A DNA stretch of 64,000 bases from contig NZ_WCHR01000007.1 in NCBI RefSeq assembly GCF_008973825.1, positions 186,001-250,000 of the forward strand. The letters run 5' to 3'. The translations under genes and the position numbers were made by a program. The notes under the pieces were generated by a model. That model saw nothing but the letters and a program-made list of their open reading frames with translations. It had not been told where the DNA came from and made no database searches. Origin of the DNA: Gemmobacter serpentinus. Lineage in GTDB: Bacteria; Pseudomonadota; Alphaproteobacteria; Rhodobacterales; Rhodobacteraceae. Shown piece by piece: positions 15,235 to 23,152 of the stretch (position 1 is its first letter; each line of letters starts with the position of its first letter).

Positions 15235-15855
15235 ATGTCCGACGCCGAACGCCCGCAGATCTATCTCATCACCCCGCCCGAGTTCGATCTTGAGCTGTTT
15301 CCGTCCCGGCTGGCCGCGGTGCTGGACGGGCATGAGGTGTCCTGCATCCGGCTGGCGCTGGCAGCGCGCGACGAAGACCGCGTGGCCCGCGCCGCAGACG
15401 CCCTGCGCGAAGTGGCCCATGCCCGCGACGTGGCGCTGGTTATCGAAAAGCATGTGCTGCTGGTCGAACGTCTGGGGCTGGATGGCGTCCATCTGACCGA
15501 TGGCGCGCGCAATGTGCGCAAGCTGCGCAAGGATCTGGGCGATGAGGCCATTATCGGCACCTTCTGCGGCACCACCCGGCATGAAGGCATCAGCGCCGCA
15601 GAGGCCGGGGCCGATTATGTGGCCTTTGGCCCGGTGGGCGAGACGCCCTTGGGGGATGGCTCTCGCGCCGAGCTGGATCTGTTCCAGTGGTGGTCGGAAA
15701 TGATCGAGGTGCCTGTCGTCGCCGAAGGCGCCCTGACCGTCGAGCTGATCGAAAAGCTGGGCCCCGTCACCGATTTCTTCGGTCTGGGCGAAGAGATCTG
15801 GCAGGCCGAGGATCCGGCCGCCGCATTGAAGGCGCTGCTCGCCCCGCTCGGCTAA
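15235..15855 (+). CDS. Thiamine-phosphate synthase-like (ThiE/TenI) TIM-barrel protein
   Basis: The 206-residue protein has the ThiE/TenI fold: an early IYLITPPEF strand, then LVIEKHVLLVERLGLDGVHLTD and EAGADYVAFGPVGETPLGDG, where true ThiE has GVHxGQxD and GPVFPTxTK. ThiE joins the HMP pyrophosphate and thiazole phosphate halves of thiamine. Here the GQ-D pyrophosphate-side motif is replaced by TDGARN, so activity is doubtful; TenI-like paralogues show similar loss. No other thiamine gene or TPP riboswitch is visible nearby. A terminator follows. Confidence 0.7.
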   Translation: MSDAERPQIYLITPPEFDLELFPSRLAAVLDGHEVSCIRLALAARDEDRVARAADALREVAHARDVALVIEKHVLLVERLGLDGVHLTDGARNVRKLRKDLGDEAIIGTFCGTTRHEGISAAEAGADYVAFGPVGETPLGDGSRAELDLFQWWSEMIEVPVVAEGALTVELIEKLGPVTDFFGLGEEIWQAEDPAAALKALLAPLG

Positions 15856-16002: not shown

Positions 16003-19000
16003 ATGGCGATCTATGCCAGTATCCATCACCTGACCCATTACACCTATGACCGCCCCGTCACGCTGGGGCCGCAGATCATCCGGCTGCGCCCCGCCCCACA
16101 ATCGCGTACCAAGGTGATCTCGCACAGCCTGAAGGTCTCGCCCGGCGGGCATTTCGTGAACCACCAGCAAGACCCCTACGGTAACTGGCTGGCGCGGTTC
16201 GTCTTCCCGGAGCCGGTGACCGAGTTCAGGATCGAGGTCGATCTGGTGGCCGATATGTCGGTCTACAATCCCTTCGACTTTTTCGTGGAAGACAGCGCCG
16301 AACATTGGCCCTTCGACTATCCGCTGGATCTGGCCGCAGATCTGGTGATCTACCGCACGCCCGAACCCGCAGGTCCGATGCTGCAGGCCTTTCTTGCCAC
16401 CATCCCGCGCGAGACAGCCCGCACCACCGATTTTCTGGTGGCGCTGAATGCGCGTGTCAGTCAGGTGGTGAACTATACGATCCGGATGGAGCCGGGCGTG
16501 CAGCGCCCGGAACAGACGCTGGATCTGCGATCGGGATCGTGCCGCGATTCCAGTTGGCTGCTGGTGCAGGCGCTGCGCCATCTGGGCTTTGCCGCGCGCT
16601 TTGTGTCGGGCTATCTGATCCAGCTCAGCCCCGATGTGAAATCGCTGGATGGCCCGTCGGGCACCGAGGTGGATTTCACCGATCTGCACGCATGGGTCGA
16701 GGTCTATTTGCCCGGTGCAGGCTGGATCGGGATGGATCCGACCTCTGGCCTGCTGACCGGCGAAAGCCATATCCCCTTGGCGGCCACCCCGCATTACCGC
16801 AATGCCGCGCCGATCTCGGGCGGATTCTCGTCTGCGGGCACGCCCGAGGTAAAGTTCGATTTCGACATGCAGGTGCGGCGCGTGGCCGAACACCCGCGCA
16901 TCACCAAACCCTTCAGCGATGAGGCATGGGACAAGCTGAACGCGGTTGGCCAGCAGGTCGACAAGGTGCTGGCGGATGGTGATGTGCGCCTGACCATGGG
17001 GGGCGAGCCCACCTTCGTGTCGATCGACGATTTCGAGGCGGCCGAATGGAACACCGATGCGGTGGGCCCGAAGAAGCGCGACCTTGCGGACCAGCTGATC
17101 CGCCGGTTGCGCAAGCGTTTTGCCCCCGGCGGTTTCCTGCATTACGGTCAGGGCAAGTGGTATCCGGGCGAAAGCCTGCCGCGCTGGACCTTCTCGCTTT
17201 ATTGGCGGCGCGACGGGCTGCCGGTCTGGAAGAACCCCGATCTGGTCGCGCGCGAGGCGACGGATTATGCAGTCGGCCCGGCTCAGGCGCATGATTTCAT
17301 GGCAGGCTTTGCCGAAAGGCTGGGTCTTGCGCCCGAACATGCACAACCGGCCTATGAAGACCCCGCAGAATGGATTCTGAAAGAGGCCAATCTGCCGCCC
17401 AATGTGACGCCGGAAAACAGCAAACTGAAAGACCCCGAGGAACGGTCGCGCTTTGCGCGCGTCTTCTCGCGCGGCTTGACCGAGCCTTCGGGCTTCATCC
17501 TGCCGATCCAGCGCTGGCAATCGCAGGCGCAGGGGCCGCGCTGGCGCTCGGAGATGTGGAAGCCCCGGCGCGGCCATCTGTTCCTTGTGCCGGGCGACAG
17601 TCCGGTGGGCTTCCGCCTGCCCTTGGCGGGCCTGCCATGGATCCCGCCTGCGCAATATCCCTATAGCTATGCCGCCGACACCTCGATCCCGCTGGCACCG
17701 CTGCCGGACTACCATGATACACTAGCCAGCCGCCGCGCGGATCTTCAGGCCGAGATCGACCGGATCGCGCAGGAAGAGGCCGCAATCCTGCCCCCGATCA
17801 CCCCCGGCCATGCCCAACCGGCCGAGCGGCAGGCCGTTGACGCACAGCAGCGGCAGATGCAGGTGCCGCAGGACGGTGTGGACCCAGCGCAGGGCGGTGT
17901 GCGCACCGCCATCGCCATCGAGCCGCGTGACGGGCGGCTCTGCCTCTTCATGCCCCCCTGCGAGACGCTGGAGGACTATCTGGAACTGCTCTCCGTCGCC
18001 GAAGCCACGGCGGCCGATCTGGAACTGCCCGTGCATATCGAAGGCTATGCGCCGCCACAGGACCCCCGGCTGAACGTGATCCGGGTGGCCCCCGATCCCG
18101 GCGTGATCGAGGTGAACATCCACCCCGCCCATAGTTGGGAGGATTGCGTGGCCACCACCGAGGCAATCTATGAAGAGGCGCGCAATTGCCGTCTTGGGGC
18201 CGATAAATTCATGATCGACGGCCGCCACACCGGCACTGGCGGCGGTAACCATGTGGTGGTCGGCGGCGAGACGATGAATGACAGCCCCTTCCTGCGCCGC
18301 CCCGATCTGCTGAAGTCGCTGATCCTGATCTGGCAGCGGCACCCGTCGCTGTCCTACATGTTCTCGGGGTTGTTCATCGGCCCGACCTCGCAGGCCCCCC
18401 GCATCGACGAGGCGCGCCATGACAGCCTTTATGAGCTGGAGATCGCCCTGTCGCAAATCGGCGATCCGGTGCGCGGCGGGCCGCTGCCGCCGCCCTGGCT
18501 GGTGGACCGGCTGCTGCGCAACATCTTGATCGATGTCACCGGCAATACCCACCGGGCCGAGATCTGCATCGACAAGCTGTTCTCGCCCGACGGGCCGACG
18601 GGGCGGTTGGGTCTGGTGGAGTTTCGCGGCTTTGAGATGCCGCCGCATCCACGCATGAACCTGGCCCAGCAATTGCTGATCCGGGCCATCATCGCACGTT
18701 GCTGGAAGGCCCCGGTGCAGGGCAAGCCGGTACGATGGGGCACGGTGCTGCATGACCGCTTCATGCTGCCGCATTTCATCTGGCAGGATTTCCTTGGGCT
18801 TCTGGACGATCTGGCGCTGCATGGCTTCAAGCTGGATCCGGTCTGGTATCAGGCACAGGCCGAGTTCCGCTTTCCCTTCTGTGGTCAGATCGAGGTCGAG
18901 GGCGTGCATCTGGAACTGCGCCAGGCGCTGGAGCCCTGGCATGTGCTGGGTGAAACCGGCGCCATCGGCGGCACGGTGCGCTATACCGACAGTTCGGTCG

Positions 19001-19419
19001 AACGGTTGCAGGTCCGCATGACCACACTGAGCCAAGATCGCTACCGGGTGATGTGCAACCAGCGCCCGGTGCCGCTGGCGCGCACCGCGACTTCGGGCGA
19101 AAGCGTAGGCGGGGTGCGCTTCAAGGCCTGGCAACCCGCGGCGGCGCTGCATCCGGTGCTGCCGGTCAATGCGCCGCTCACCTTCGACATCTATGATGAC
19201 TGGACGGGCCGCGCCATTGGCGGCTGTGTCTATCATGTGGCCCATCCCGGCGGGCGCAACTATGACACCTTCCCGGTGAATGGCTATGAGGCCGAAGCCC
19301 GGCGTCTGGCCCGGTTCGAGGCGCATGGCCACAGCCCCGGCCCCTATGCCCCAGTGACCGAGATCCCGCATCCCGAATTCCCGATGACCCTCGACCTGCG
19401 CCGCGCACCATGGATATAA
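16003..19419 (+). CDS. Transglutaminase-like + DUF2126 fusion protein (predicted amidoligase)
   Basis: This 1138-residue protein has two parts. Residues 1-290 are a bacterial transglutaminase-like domain, with a N-terminal beta region ([17 protein letters not shown]) and a papain-like triad C180 ([10 protein letters not shown]), H229 (TDLHAWVEV) and D245 (GMDPTSG). Residues about 320-1138 are DUF2126, opening with [20 protein letters not shown] and carrying the segment [17 protein letters not shown] (H742, H750). That pattern resembles the glutamine-synthetase-like carboxylate-amine ligases to which comparative work assigned DUF2126. No signal peptide is seen. It opens a co-oriented cassette, seven bases before the ATP-grasp gene. 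A combined role in making or cutting peptide or isopeptide bonds is inferred; the substrate is unknown. Confidence 0.9.
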
Positions 19420-19426
19420 CGGCGGG

Positions 19427-21820
19427 ATGAGCCATCCCGCCGCCAGCCCCGCCCCGCCCGCGATCCTTGCAGGCTATCGTCCGCAACCCGGTGTCGCGGA
19501 CGAATTGTTCGACAGTGACGGAAGGATGCGCCCGGTCTGGGCCCCCTTCATCACCCAGCTGGCCAGCCTTGCCCCCCATGAAGTGGCGACCCGTTTCGCC
19601 CGGGGTGAGCAATATCTGCGCGATGCAGGCGTCTATTTCCGGCTCTATAGCGGTGGCCCCGCACAGGAACGCGAATGGCCGCTGAGCCATGTGCCGGTGA
19701 TCCTCTCGGATGCGGAATGGCAGGGCATCTGCGCAGGACTGACCCAGCGGGCCGAATTGCTGGAACGGGTGATGGCCGATCTGTATGGCCCCGGGCGGCT
19801 GGTATCTGATGGGCATCTGCCCGCCGAACTGGTGGCGCAGAACCCGCAATGGCTGCGCCCGCTGGTCGGCATCACGCCGCGATCGGGCCATTGGCTGCAC
19901 CATCTGGCCTTCGAGATCGGGCGTTCCCCCGACGGGTCGTTCTTCGTGCTGGGGGATCGTGCACAGGCGCCATCGGGGTCAGGCTTTGCGCTGGAAAACC
20001 GCATGGCGACGACGCGGATCTTCTCGGACCCTTTCCCGCGCGCCAATGTGCGCAGGCTGGCCGGGTTCTTCCGCGCCTTCCGCGCCGCGATGGAAGATCA
20101 GGCGGGTGCCGGGCGGCGCATGGCGATCCTGACGCCGGGGCCGAACAACGACACCTATTACGAGCATACCTATATCGCCCGCTATCTTGGCATGACGCTG
20201 CTGGAGGGCGAGGATCTGATCGTGCAGAACGGTCAGGCCATGGTGCGCACCGTGCGCGGGCTGGAGCCGCTGGGCCTGCTGTGGCGTCGCATCGACAGCG
20301 AATTTGCCGATCCGCTGGAACTGAACGAGACCTCGCAGATCGGCACGCCCGGATTGCTGGAGGCGCTGCGGCAGGGCAATCTGAGCCTGATCAACGCGCT
20401 TGGATCCGGGGTGATCGAGGCCCGCGCGATGATGGCCTTCCTGCCCCGGATCTGTGAAACATTGATGGGTGCGCCGCTGCAAATGCCCAATATCGCGACA
20501 TGGTGGTGCGGCCAGCCGCGCGAGCGCGCCTATGTGCAGCAAAACGCCGCCAAGATGATGATCGGCGCGGCGCTGGACGCAGCCTTGCCCTTTGCCATCG
20601 GTGCCGATACCGCGCTTGGCGGGCAGTTCCGTGCCGGGTCGTCGCTATCCTTGCCCGATTGGCTCGCCGCCGAGGGTGGCCGTCTGGTGGGGCAAGAGGC
20701 GGTGACATTGTCGACCACGCCGGCCTGGACGGGCGAGGCCAATAGCGGTCGCCTTGTGCCGCGCCCGATGACGATCCGGGTCTTTGCCGCCCGCACCGCG
20801 CAAGGCTGGACCTTCATGCCCGGCGGCTATGCCCGCATTGGCAAAAGCGATGATGCGACCGCGCTTGCGATGCAAAATGGCGGCTCGGTCGCCGATGTCT
20901 GGGTGGTTGCCCCTGAGGCGGTGAAGCCCGACAGTCTGGTGCAGGGCAATATATTCGAGCGCAATCCGCCCGGCATCCTGCCATCGCGCGCGGCAGACAA
21001 TCTGTATTGGCTGGGCCGCTATATCGAGCGGACCGAGGGCGCGATCCGCCTGCTGCGCGCCTGGCATCTGCGGCTGGCAGAAACCGGCGATCCCGATGAG
21101 GCGCGGCTTCAGGAACTTGCGGCCTATATGGAAAGATTGGGCCTGCATCCCGACCGTCCGATCCCCGAGGGGCTGGCGGGCCTTGTCTCTGCCGCGCGCA
21201 ATGCCGCCGCCAAGGTGCGTGACCGCTTCTCGCCCGATGGTTGGGGGGCGCTGAACGATCTGGCCAAGACCACCGCCAAGCTGACCGCCAAGGTCAGCCA
21301 TGGCGATGATGCGGCACTGGCCATGTCGATCCTGCTGCGCAAGATTTCCGGCTTTTCGGGGCTGGTGCATGAAAACATGTATCACTTCGCAGGCTGGCGC
21401 TTCCTGTCGCTGGGCCGGGCCGAGGAGCGCGCAGGCGCAACCCTGATGCTGCTGGAGACCTTTACCGATCCTGAGGCCGCCCCTGGCGCGCTGGAAATCG
21501 CGATCGAGGTTGGCGACAGCGCGATGACGCATCAGCGCCGCTACCGTTTCGGCCCCTCGCGCCAGACGGTGCTGGACCTGCTGATGCTGGATGCGCAGAA
21601 CCCGCGCTCGGTGCTGTATCAGGTGGCGCAACTGCGCCATCACATCGGCAAGCTGCCGCAGGAAGGTGCCGGGCTTTCGGCGCTGGACCGGATACTTCTG
21701 CGCATCGATACCGATCTGCGGGTGGCCGATCCCGCCGGGATCGACGCCGAGATGCTGGCCGATCTGCGTGCGCGCATGTCGGATGTGTTCGAGCTGATCT
21801 CGACCAGCTTTCTGAGGTAA
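19427..21820 (+). CDS. Circularly permuted ATP-grasp + alpha-E domain protein
   Basis: The 797-residue fusion joins a circularly permuted ATP-grasp ligase (about residues 70-490) to an alpha-E helical domain (about 515-797). ATP-grasp elements include ERVMADLYGPGRLVSDG, RMAILTPGPNNDTYYEHTYI, VRGLEPLGLLWRRIDSEFAD, and VWVVAPE near its end. Alpha-E begins with LPSRAADNLYWLGRYIERTEG, its hallmark, and has MHQRRYRFGPSRQTVLDLLMLD-type helices later. In many bacteria these are two separate genes next to each other; here they are fused. ATP-grasp enzymes activate a carboxylate as acyl phosphate for amide ligation. It lies 7 bp after the DUF2126 gene and 4 bp before a transglutaminase gene. Product and acceptor are unknown. 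Confidence 0.9.
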   Translation: MSHPAASPAPPAILAGYRPQPGVADELFDSDGRMRPVWAPFITQLASLAPHEVATRFARGEQYLRDAGVYFRLYSGGPAQEREWPLSHVPVILSDAEWQGICAGLTQRAELLERVMADLYGPGRLVSDGHLPAELVAQNPQWLRPLVGITPRSGHWLHHLAFEIGRSPDGSFFVLGDRAQAPSGSGFALENRMATTRIFSDPFPRANVRRLAGFFRAFRAAMEDQAGAGRRMAILTPGPNNDTYYEHTYIARYLGMTLLEGEDLIVQNGQAMVRTVRGLEPLGLLWRRIDSEFADPLELNETSQIGTPGLLEALRQGNLSLINALGSGVIEARAMMAFLPRICETLMGAPLQMPNIATWWCGQPRERAYVQQNAAKMMIGAALDAALPFAIGADTALGGQFRAGSSLSLPDWLAAEGGRLVGQEAVTLSTTPAWTGEANSGRLVPRPMTIRVFAARTAQGWTFMPGGYARIGKSDDATALAMQNGGSVADVWVVAPEAVKPDSLVQGNIFERNPPGILPSRAADNLYWLGRYIERTEGAIRLLRAWHLRLAETGDPDEARLQELAAYMERLGLHPDRPIPEGLAGLVSAARNAAAKVRDRFSPDGWGALNDLAKTTAKLTAKVSHGDDAALAMSILLRKISGFSGLVHENMYHFAGWRFLSLGRAEERAGATLMLLETFTDPEAAPGALEIAIEVGDSAMTHQRRYRFGPSRQTVLDLLMLDAQNPRSVLYQVAQLRHHIGKLPQEGAGLSALDRILLRIDTDLRVADPAGIDAEMLADLRARMSDVFELISTSFLR

Positions 21821-21824
21821 GGCG

Positions 21825-22745
21825 ATGCGCTACAAGATCCGCCTGACCATTGATTACCAGTATCAATCCGCATCGGACCATGTGCGCAATGTGCTGCGCC
21901 TGCTGCCCTCGGATGCGCCGGGCCAGCATGTCACGGCGCGCAGCCTGACCATCAGCCCACCGCCACAGGAACGCCTCGACCGGCTGGACTTCTTTGGCAA
22001 TACCACCACGGATGTGGTCTGGCATCAGCCGGTCGAGACCATCACCTTCACGCTGGAGGCCGAGGCCGAGCGGTTCGCCACACCGCCTGTCGATGTCTCG
22101 CCGCCGCTGAAGGGCATTGCCGCCGATGTGGCGGGTGCCGGGATCGGGCCACTGTCGCCCCTGCATTTCCTTGGCCCCTCGCCGCGTATCCGGGCCGAGG
22201 CCGCGATCACCGCCTTTACCCGCGCGGCCTTGCCCGCCACCGGATCCAGCCTTGCCATGGTCGAGGCGGTGGGGCGGGCGCTGCACAAGGCGATGACCTA
22301 TGATGCGGATGCGACCGATGTGAACACCTCGCCGCTGGAGGCCTTTGGCAAGCGGCGCGGAGTCTGTCAGGATTTCGCACAGATCATGATCGCGGGCTTG
22401 CGCGCCATCGGTCTGCCCGCCGCCTATGTCTCGGGCTTTTTGCGGACCTATCCCCCGCCGGGCCAGCCCCGGCTGGAAGGGGTGGATGCGATGCACGCCT
22501 GGGTCGCGGTGTGGTGCGGTCAGGCGCAGGCCTGGGTCGAATATGACCCGACCAATGCGCAATGGGCGGGCGAGGATTACATCACCGTGGCCATCGGGCG
22601 CGACTATGCCGATGTCGCCCCGGTGAAGGGCGCGATCCGCACTTCGGGCGGTCAGGACAGCGCGCAGGCGGTGGATGTGATCCCGCTGGATGATCCCGTA
22701 ACACCGCCTCAAGCCGACATGACCGGGAAAGACCGAACGCCATGA
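21825..22745 (+). CDS. Transglutaminase-like cysteine protein
   Basis: This 306-residue cytosolic protein begins MRYKIRLTIDYQYQSASDHV, the bacterial transglutaminase N-terminal beta domain, and carries a complete triad: C181 (RRGVCQDFAQI), H224 (DAMHAWVAVW) and D241 (VEYDPTN). It is the second, free-standing transglutaminase of the cassette. Homologues next to ATP-grasp/alpha-E genes are thought to hydrolyse or transfer peptide-like amide bonds rather than cross-link proteins. It starts 4 bp after the ATP-grasp gene and its stop overlaps the Nudix start (ATGA), so the four genes are likely co-translated. Confidence 0.93.
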   Translation: MRYKIRLTIDYQYQSASDHVRNVLRLLPSDAPGQHVTARSLTISPPPQERLDRLDFFGNTTTDVVWHQPVETITFTLEAEAERFATPPVDVSPPLKGIAADVAGAGIGPLSPLHFLGPSPRIRAEAAITAFTRAALPATGSSLAMVEAVGRALHKAMTYDADATDVNTSPLEAFGKRRGVCQDFAQIMIAGLRAIGLPAAYVSGFLRTYPPPGQPRLEGVDAMHAWVAVWCGQAQAWVEYDPTNAQWAGEDYITVAIGRDYADVAPVKGAIRTSGGQDSAQAVDVIPLDDPVTPPQADMTGKDRTP

Positions 22746-23152
22746 CCGCCACGATCCGCATTGCCGCCGCCATCATCCTTGATGATGCGGGCCGCACGCT
22801 TCTGGTGCGCAAACAGGGCACGCAGGCCTTCATGCAAGCCGGGGGCAAGATCGAGGGCGGCGAGGCGCCGCTGGATGCCCTGCGCCGCGAATTGCACGAG
22901 GAACTGGGCCTGACCCTGCCCGCATCCGGCGTTGACCCCGTGGGGCGGTTCGAGGCACCCGCCGCGAACGAGCCGGGGCATCTGGTGGTGGCCGAGATCT
23001 TTCGCCTGCAGCTGGACCAGACGGATCTGCATCCGGCAGCCGAGATTGCCGAGGCGATCTGGATCGACCCCGCTGCGCCGCCCGCGATCACGCTGGCACC
23101 ACTGACACGCGACCAGATCCTGCCACTGGCAGCAAGGCTGATACAAGCCTGA
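22742..23152 (+). CDS. Nudix hydrolase coupled to the transglutaminase cassette
   Basis: The 136-residue protein has a perfect Nudix box at residues 35-57 (GKIEGGEAPLDALRREL continuing HEELGL), matching G-x5-E-x7-R-E-U-x-E-E-x-G-U. Nudix enzymes hydrolyse nucleoside diphosphates linked to another moiety and other pyrophosphates. The start overlaps the previous stop by 4 bp, so it belongs to the transcript of the DUF2126/ATP-grasp cassette. Its family resembles (d)NTP or sugar-nucleotide cleaners, but substrate cannot be told. It may be functionally linked to the cassette or only co-transcribed. A strong hairpin follows after 140 bp. Confidence 0.9.
   Translation: MTATIRIAAAIILDDAGRTLLVRKQGTQAFMQAGGKIEGGEAPLDALRRELHEELGLTLPASGVDPVGRFEAPAANEPGHLVVAEIFRLQLDQTDLHPAAEIAEAIWIDPAAPPAITLAPLTRDQILPLAARLIQA

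Follow-up and report, generated by a model that had tools for sequence, protein, structure and literature searches.

Which reaction does a row of genes encoding two transglutaminase-like domains, a DUF2126 domain and an ATP-grasp protein carry out, and does it do so on its own? This question is raised by a locus in the 64,000-nucleotide stretch of Gemmobacter serpentinus DNA analyzed here (the window). The sequence-only reading had proposed a four-gene cassette that might make, attach and trim a tag resembling a peptide, or a small metabolite. The interpretation that we favour, with a probability of about 0.5, regards the locus as the DUF2126 module of a known amide-bond system comprising transglutaminase (TG), permuted ATP-grasp, alpha-E and Anbu proteins, which would run a cycle of amide conjugation and deconjugation.

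Organization and conservation of the locus

The four open reading frames all lie on the forward strand and start with ATG. Genes A (16003..19419), B (19427..21820), C (21825..22745) and a Nudix hydrolase gene (22742..23152) encode products of 1138, 797, 306 and 136 amino acids, respectively. Re-reading of the ORFs confirmed the claimed co-orientation and intergenic distances (7 bp for A/B, 4 bp for B/C and -4 bp for C/Nudix), and Pfam profiles recovered the claimed domains of the four genes: Bact_transglu_N, Transglut_core and DUF2126 (1320.7 bits) in A, CP_ATPgrasp_2/_1 and Alpha-E in B, Bact_transglu_N and Transglut_core in C, and NUDIX (51.8 bits) in the last gene. A RiPP-like precursor peptide inside the cassette was rejected because such gaps leave no space for it. 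A search of plasmids with the first 798 bases of A gave no near match, and viral contigs contained no relative of B. Upstream of A lies, on the same strand, a thiamine phosphate synthase family (TMP-TENI) gene (15235..15855) that profile and synteny place outside the system; it adjoins A in all three Gemmobacter loci too. Clustering of neighbouring genes was swamped by shadow ORFs, and only a urease linkage was read from it.

Genes A, B and C constitute a module that is conserved and widespread in bacteria (TG-DUF2126, CP-ATP-grasp-alpha-E, TG). The succession A>B>C was found at 26 of the 35 loci of the same order, with A beside Anbu-type genes without B at 6/35 and A alone at 3/35. It was also present at 75/80 GTDB loci and was contiguous at 17 of 20 hand-picked phylum-wide loci. 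Anbu-type ATP-grasp/alpha-E genes occurred within 9/20 of these phylum stretches, and six genes stood co-oriented in a row at loci L182 and L190. Rhodobacter capsulatus DSM 1710 (L081) has the module, and Synechococcus elongatus, included as a control, was positive for both DUF2126 and alpha-E. Mycobacterial Rv2566/Rv2567 are presumably homologues.

Iyer, Abhiman, Burroughs and Aravind reportedly delineated in 2009 (Mol Biosyst 5:1636), by comparative genomics, a system of TG, CP-ATP-grasp, alpha-E, Ntn-hydrolase and TG-COOH-NH2 ligase proteins. The domains of A, B and C are alike, and the locus combines in one operon a CP-ATP-grasp with alpha-E and a separate TG. Domains and synteny thus bear out the claim that the locus belongs to the DUF2126/CP-ATP-grasp/alpha-E/TG system of unproven product, and the cassette is a member of a system already described. 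It differs in that Anbu, an intact ATP-grasp and a third TG are found here in another operon on another contig, and in that a Nudix gene is appended.

The Nudix gene, identified by Pfam, synteny and a residue/ORF check, overlaps C by 4 bp and represents a local addition. No Nudix homologue above 50 bits was detected in 35 + 80 neighbourhoods of the module, and searching 40 other genomes likewise gave no closely related gene. C and a convergent ClpB gene lie only 32-102 bp apart in the three Gemmobacter loci. Since these close relatives have no room for it and the 40 other genomes lack a close homologue, the gene is a newcomer. We judge that it is not part of the conserved system and not needed, and the claim of a four-gene cassette has to be reduced accordingly to three genes. 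The same results weigh on the idea of a self-sufficient cassette producing a small, peptide-like metabolite, in which the Nudix enzyme would serve for tailoring or house-cleaning. The tight spacing that includes the Nudix gene and its GC3 of 0.788, similar to that of its neighbours, speak for this idea, but the absence of the gene from the conserved module, a degenerate ATP-grasp and a strict co-occurrence with genes outside the cassette (see below) make it very unlikely.

Gene A combines a transglutaminase-like domain and a predicted ligase fold

Pfam matches, the triad and the model fold divide gene A into an N-terminal transglutaminase-like domain (aa 1-~250) and a DUF2126 domain (aa 282-1133; 16846..19401 by Pfam and alignment). 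The ordered Cys-His-Asp triad of transglutaminase-like enzymes was found by residue check and alignment in A (C180, H229 and D245, codons within 16540..16737) and in the stand-alone protein C (C181/H224/D241). Both triads were at the positions claimed and both were invariant: that of A was kept in 112/112 homologues having the columns (113 were examined, one of which was cut short), and that of C in 101/101. A larger alignment gave 146/146 for C180, 147/147 for H229 and 147/147 for D245 among the rows with a letter there. As they are kept in all homologues with the columns, the two triads reflect more than chance.

Seven residues of DUF2126 (E335, E703, N705, H750, R800, E873 and R875) were present in 147/147 rows. 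The glutamine synthetase (GS)-like pattern that had been proposed around H742 and H750 holds in part: H750 was kept in 113/113 homologues as well as in all 147 rows, whereas H742, present in 107/113, is not conserved. The best-ranked 32 structure matches of the DUF2126 model consisted of 31 GS-fold ligases and one bifunctional glutathione synthetase. In a second comparison, 50/50 rows belonged to the glutamine synthetase family (Z 11.2-12.3, rmsd 3.0-8.0, 206-282 residues aligned). The model itself is of middling quality (pLDDT 69.7), its last ~170 residues being barely covered by the fold comparison; Foldseek returned no match at E 0.001 or below, and no relative of DUF2126 emerged up to E 1 when solved structures were searched by profile. 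On this basis DUF2126 models as a glutamine-synthetase fold, that is, as a putative COOH-NH2 ligase-like domain. Its predicted fold resembles that of the GS-fold ligases GS, GmaS and YbdK, although identity in the structural matches is only 8-17%, and it differs from them in being joined to a Cys amidase-like domain. Alignment shows gene A to carry in one chain two invariant sets of putative active-site residues, those of a Cys-His-Asp amidase/transamidase and those of a GS-fold ligase. Glutathionylspermidine enzymes follow a synthetase-amidase logic on other folds than those of A.

The ATP-grasp domain of gene B is degenerate

The product of gene B is clearly homologous to the circularly permuted ATP-grasp superfamily (PF14403, 417 bits; 3n6x, E 1e-60), and its fusion to alpha-E, as previously claimed, was recovered by profile. 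Catalytically active ATP-grasp enzymes are characterized by E-x-N metal ligands and a Lys/Gly-rich ATP loop. These are not found in B, where G176-D177-R178 (19952..19960) aligns with the E-D-N of intact paralogues (presumed Mg2+ ligands), as also read from an alignment to 3n6x. We compared 121 B rows (114 distinct) with 18 Anbu-type rows, one of them cut short. The E and the N of the motif were each present in 0/121 fused B copies and were kept by 17/17 Anbu-operon paralogues having those columns, and K400, D507 and N538 were absent from 121/121 B copies. The ATP-binding Lys was retained in 6/121, all deep-branching, and Gly-loop columns were matched in 13/121 (G453), 37/121 (G454), 1/121 (Y455) and 10/121 (G456), counts which shift with the alignment. 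The decay is therefore uneven: a few copies still have the Lys, and in a minority some of the Gly loop can still be aligned. In a tree of 56 rows drawn from a set of 132, which lacked the B copies of the six loci that contain both types (L181, L182, L190, L192, L194 and L196), the fused and the intact Anbu types each formed one clade (support 100/100). The split between degenerate and intact types is, judged from this tree, an old one. The Pfam text for CP_ATPgrasp_1 is said to mention active and inactive forms, the latter often fused to alpha-E, together with the TG-ligase fusion.

Lost residues, domain profile and clade thus designate B as a degenerate (pseudo) ATP-grasp-alpha-E fusion, and the description of its ATP-grasp as a working ligase is not sustained, given the loss of the E-x-N pair. 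The domain looks dead, although missing motif residues are no proof of inactivity. A living enzyme with a new nucleotide or substrate site would account for the substitution of position 249 (Ser in intact paralogues) by Gly in 121/121 copies, for that of position 241 (Asn in intact paralogues) by Arg in 115/121, and for the six remaining Lys residues; we consider it improbable, as the E-x-N pair, K400, D507 and N538 are lost in 121/121, which is usual for pseudo-enzymes.

The alpha-E domain of B (20978..21814 by Pfam, alignment and model) contains two E-R motifs (E534-R535 and E667-R668). In an alignment of 76 rows, R31, E163 and R164 were invariant and E30 was present in 90% or more. The model reached a pLDDT of 94.0. 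Foldseek found no match to it under E 0.001, and profile searches of solved structures with alpha-E returned only a chimera (E 0.39). The best VIA match was NasR (Z 10.2, rmsd 5.7, 217 aligned), and since this is below the level informative for helical bundles, we claim no fold for alpha-E. A link between Alpha-E and HEPN, prompted by a mention of DUF403 in one HEPN paper, was dropped, as the accessible part of that paper held no usable statement; the sought terms were likewise absent from the portion available of a paper on the CDC123 ATP-grasp.

Association with an Anbu operon and genome-wide co-occurrence

A complete Anbu operon is present in the same genome on another contig (L004:8414-12704). 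It encodes an ATP-grasp that keeps the catalytic-type residues in the alignment, a second alpha-E, a third transglutaminase and the Ntn-hydrolase Anbu. Among 398 sampled phylum genomes, DUF2126 was found in 120, alpha-E in 212 and Anbu in 145. Alpha-E occurred in 120/120 DUF2126 genomes but in only 92/278 of those without DUF2126 (Fisher p 2e-43), and at least two alpha-E in 111/120 against 12/278. All 120 DUF2126 genomes also contained an ATP-grasp matching the intact type (E 2.9e-137 or better), called by score and not by residues. The claim of a self-contained cassette finds no support in these data: from the intact paralogue in the Anbu operon and the 120/120 co-occurrence, the cassette is one half, the one with DUF2126, of a system in two parts. 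That DUF2126 never occurred in these samples without alpha-E and an intact-type ATP-grasp provides a guide for experimenters. An Anbu match was found in 76/120 DUF2126 genomes and in none of the other 44. As DUF2126 and Anbu are, given alpha-E, independent (Fisher p 0.24), Anbu is not an obligate partner of DUF2126.

According to the available sections of PMC6376114, the Anbu operon of Yersinia bercovieri has ATP-grasp, alpha-E and TG genes paralogous to those of the cassette and no DUF2126 among its four named genes; one of its enzymes releases phosphate from ATP, and co-expression and pull-downs of its proteins gave no specific complex. The same sections present proposals made by Iyer 2009 and by Valas and Bourne 2008: proteins would receive a peptide or amino-acid tag from the ligases, this tag would be edited by the transglutaminases, and Anbu would degrade or de-tag the targets. 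Such tagging is made conceivable by the gathering of several amide-forming and amide-breaking domains, and by the fact that this genome encodes Anbu, which is homologous to the proteasome. However, Anbu is dispensable (44/120), and the Y. bercovieri protein showed neither peptidase activity nor a stable operon complex in what is accessible of PMC6376114, so that we consider protein tagging rather unlikely. A role of Anbu in protein degradation is preferred by Fuchs et al. in the part of PMC5666114 available, which also cites studies where Anbu expression was unchanged under various conditions; this, like the missing Yersinia complex, counts against the amide cycle that we favour.

Possible nitrogen control and a proposed amide cycle

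Several reports connect relatives of the module with nitrogen. In the excerpts available, genes I35_5080-83 of B. cenocepacia, encoding DUF404/407, DUF403, transglutaminase and large transglutaminase proteins, appear with values of -6.0 to -9.4 for an ntrC mutant (PMC5491218); PP_2685/PP_2688 of P. putida are up 4.44/3.99 log2 on nitrate vs ammonium (PMC8050072); a CP_ATPgrasp_1 gene is listed with a putative RpoN site (PMC13207237); and a correlation with urea-metabolism domains is given for marine metagenomes (PMC3597751). For Sinorhizobium COG2308, the accessible source text gives a regulatory-region association only. The sigma54-type promoter of an NtrC/sigma54 nitrogen regulon was not found upstream of A in the window (best score 10 of 15, p 0.98), and there was no enrichment upstream of A across loci, with 5/134 regions at p <= 0.05, a count that includes some regions mis-cut at contig ends (with offsets such as -3127 in L072, -3378 in L108 and -9153 in L149).

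In the amide cycle that we favour, DUF2126 would join a carboxylate to an amine at the cost of ATP, the acyl donor being perhaps glutamate-like by analogy with its look-alikes GS, GmaS and YbdK. The transglutaminase domains would hydrolyse or transfer the amide. B may act as a non-catalytic scaffold or regulator that links A and C with the intact pair of ATP-grasp and alpha-E. The proteins would jointly make and undo an amide on a substrate that is a small amine or a peptide; this would probably take place in the cytosol and probably serve nitrogen limitation, as reported in relatives. In the portions of the literature searched, no product was named for DUF2126/alpha-E systems. A more elaborate scheme is that the cassette arose as an accessory "second ligase": the Anbu-type ATP-grasp/alpha-E pair would have been duplicated, the ATP-grasp copy killed and turned into a scaffold, and the fusion of TG and GS fold recruited, and the hetero-complex formed in this way would, under nitrogen limitation, use the two active sites of a single chain to build and split a gamma-glutamyl-like amide in a cycle, comparable in its logic to the glutathionylspermidine enzymes. 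We hold this scheme to be speculative and on balance doubtful.

Sorting intact from degenerate active sites shows which proteins to combine and which mutants would be informative. The rlo operon of P. aeruginosa (retropepsin, inactive transglutaminase and ATP-grasp) is also a locus with ATP-grasp and transglutaminase folds; unlike the cassette, its inactive TG is membrane-bound, and neither DUF2126 nor alpha-E is named in the available part of PMC12239564.

Gene membership of the cassette

Re-reading of the window sequence and a domain search confirmed the four forward-strand ORFs, with the domains and spacing (7, 4 and -4 bp) that the sequence-only reading had given them: the transglutaminase-DUF2126 gene (A, 16003-19419), the CP-ATP-grasp-alpha-E gene (B, 19427-21820), the stand-alone transglutaminase gene (C, 21825-22745) and a Nudix gene (22742-23152). 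An NCBIfam search did not assign A, B or C to any family at E 0.01. The original observation was correct and careful, and it concerns a system already known and so far uncharacterised; what we add is that one gene is a bystander, that the ATP-grasp is probably dead with an intact one elsewhere, and that DUF2126 is the remaining candidate ligase.

The host genome comprises 4.26 Mb in 63 contigs. Among 80 kept GTDB loci, DUF2126 identity to the window was highest in Gemmobacter species (87-89%), and one short Paracoccus MAG contig reached 88%. Contiguous A > B > C, the order of the window, was found in 26 of 35 loci of the order; A adjoined Anbu-type ATP-grasp/alpha-E genes without B in six and stood alone in three. 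The same order was present in 75 of the 80 GTDB loci, the other five being a single A > B, two loci on short contigs that show just A and two without a called gene. Of 20 picked phylum loci, 9 had Anbu-type genes in one stretch with A; in L182 and L190 all six genes are consecutive and co-oriented.

The Nudix gene had been counted as a cassette member, and this was not borne out. No homologue above 50 bits was detected in the 35 order loci or the 80 GTDB loci. Three Gemmobacter loci (L070, L071 and L076) have the flanks of the window, a thiamine-phosphate-synthase-like gene upstream and a convergent ClpB downstream, with only 74, 32 and 102 bp, respectively, between C and ClpB. No close homologue was found in 40 other genomes, 10 of them of the same genus, the best match reaching 40.5 bits and 35% identity. 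Since no homologue above 50 bits turned up in these neighbourhoods and no close one in these genomes, and since the three Gemmobacter loci leave no room before ClpB, the Nudix gene is a local addition and a bystander to the system, despite a GC3 (0.788) like that of its neighbours. This orphan gene is translationally coupled to C through the 4-bp overlap.

The ATP-grasp of B and its intact paralogue

Residues were counted in 121 B sequences against 18 Anbu-operon paralogue rows (one cut short), numbered on the 553-aa ORF of the Anbu operon of the window's own genome (from L004:8414). E239, N241, K400, D507 and N538, the expected Mg2+/ATP binders of the Anbu-operon paralogues, were each found in 0/121 B sequences, and K447 in 6/121. 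Gly loop positions 453-456 were kept by 13, 37, 1 and 10 of 121, in a region where the alignment is unsteady. Scaffold residues were retained in B (R354 119/121, R355 117/121, D357 118/121), as were the E-R motifs of its alpha-E domain. The Anbu-operon type shares its E-D-N and Lys/Gly-loop stretches with the solved relative 3n6x. A 56-row tree placed each of the two types in a single clade with support of 100/100. The loss of the presumed Mg2+/ATP residues, together with this fully supported separate clade, suggests that B is an old, conserved pseudo-ATP-grasp whose ATP-grasp is probably dead. Inactive ATP-grasp forms fused to alpha-E reportedly exist, according to a Pfam description derived from Iyer 2009.

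The alpha-E model (window 20939-21817; pLDDT 94.0) is all-helical, with 12 helices. It had no confident match among solved structures, and the best match of a second aligner, the NasR antiterminator, was weak.

A second alpha-E gene of the genome lies on contig C3 within a complete Anbu operon (L004:8414-12704) encoding a CP-ATP-grasp, an alpha-E protein, a transglutaminase and the proteasome-family protein Anbu. Among 149 genomes of the order, 36 carry DUF2126 and 106 alpha-E; combining two tables, a high-scoring Anbu-type alpha-E was present in 36/36 DUF2126 genomes, and any alpha-E in 70/113 others. Across 398 phylum genomes, which are related and therefore non-independent draws (at least 27 from the window's own family), 120 genomes carried DUF2126, 212 alpha-E and 145 Anbu, the last searched with one query protein. 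Alpha-E was present in 120/120 DUF2126 genomes versus 92/278 others, and at least two copies in 111/120 versus 12/278. An intact ATP-grasp is encoded outside the cassette and co-occurs in every sampled DUF2126 genome (120/120, E 2.9e-137 or better), the intact type being judged by score, not by residues. Anbu itself occurred in 76/120 DUF2126 genomes and, given alpha-E, was independent of DUF2126 (p 0.24).

DUF2126 as candidate ligase

Of 113 homologues examined for the triad of A, 112 have the columns, and all 112 keep it; the triad of C was kept in 101/101. In a wider count at phylum level, based on the window and on 146 distinct homologues found at 165 loci, C180 of A was found in 146/146 rows with a letter there, and H229 and D245 in 147/147. 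DUF2126 residues E335, E703, N705, H750, R800, E873 and R875 were present in 147/147 rows; H742, which the sequence-only reading had singled out, was not conserved (107/113 homologues). With an AlphaFold model of DUF2126 (59 rows, pLDDT 69.7, pTM 0.73), GS-fold ligases made up 31 of the 32 best-ranked Foldseek matches, YbdK first, followed by GS and GmaS entries, with a bifunctional glutathione synthetase at rank 31; no match reached E 0.001. A second structure aligner returned the glutamine synthetase family in 50/50 rows (Z 11.2-12.3, rmsd 3.0-8.0, 206-282 residues aligned), in a comparison that barely covers the model past about residue 700. Within the cassette, the GS-fold DUF2126 domain is left as the candidate ligase.

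In the available text of the papers among the matches listed in our literature searches, no product of the system is named. In the accessible parts, phosphate release from ATP is reported for the ATP-grasp of the Yersinia Anbu operon, but neither peptidase activity of Anbu nor a stable complex of the operon proteins (PMC6376114); for Anbu, Fuchs et al. favour a role in protein degradation (PMC5666114).

Possible link to nitrogen metabolism

Four reports, as far as their available text goes, connect related genes with nitrogen: a DUF404/407-DUF403-transglutaminase-large transglutaminase cluster of Burkholderia cenocepacia is NtrC/sigma54-dependent (PMC5491218), nitrate induces Anbu and CP-ATP-grasp genes in P. 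putida (PMC8050072), a CP_ATPgrasp_1 gene of Bradyrhizobium is listed with a putative RpoN site (PMC13207237), and homologues correlate with urea metabolism in metagenomes (PMC3597751). Urease genes, recognised from sequence, lay near the cassette in 9/129 neighbourhoods, or eight if the repeated Thalassovita stretch L036/L134 is counted once. They are on the strand of A, upstream of it in L036/L134, L101 and L130 and downstream in L057, L059, L114, L115 and L120, the side varying by genus. However, sigma54-type sites were not enriched upstream of A, and none occurred in the window, which counts against the nitrogen link drawn from the papers and the urease neighbours.

At the urease loci, about 4-12 kb separate the start of A from the urease genes, which are ureA and, in most cases, also ureB plus a ureD-like ORF. 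One phylum locus, L180, has a sigma54-like site, TGGCATAAGTCTTGC, 53 bp upstream of A (p 0.08 versus Markov controls). In five loci of one lineage (L056, L060, L061, L116 and L118), an ORF on the same strand precedes A and encodes a small protein (about 190-210 aa) whose N-terminus resembles a signal peptide; the ORF midpoint lies about 420-450 bp upstream of the start of A.
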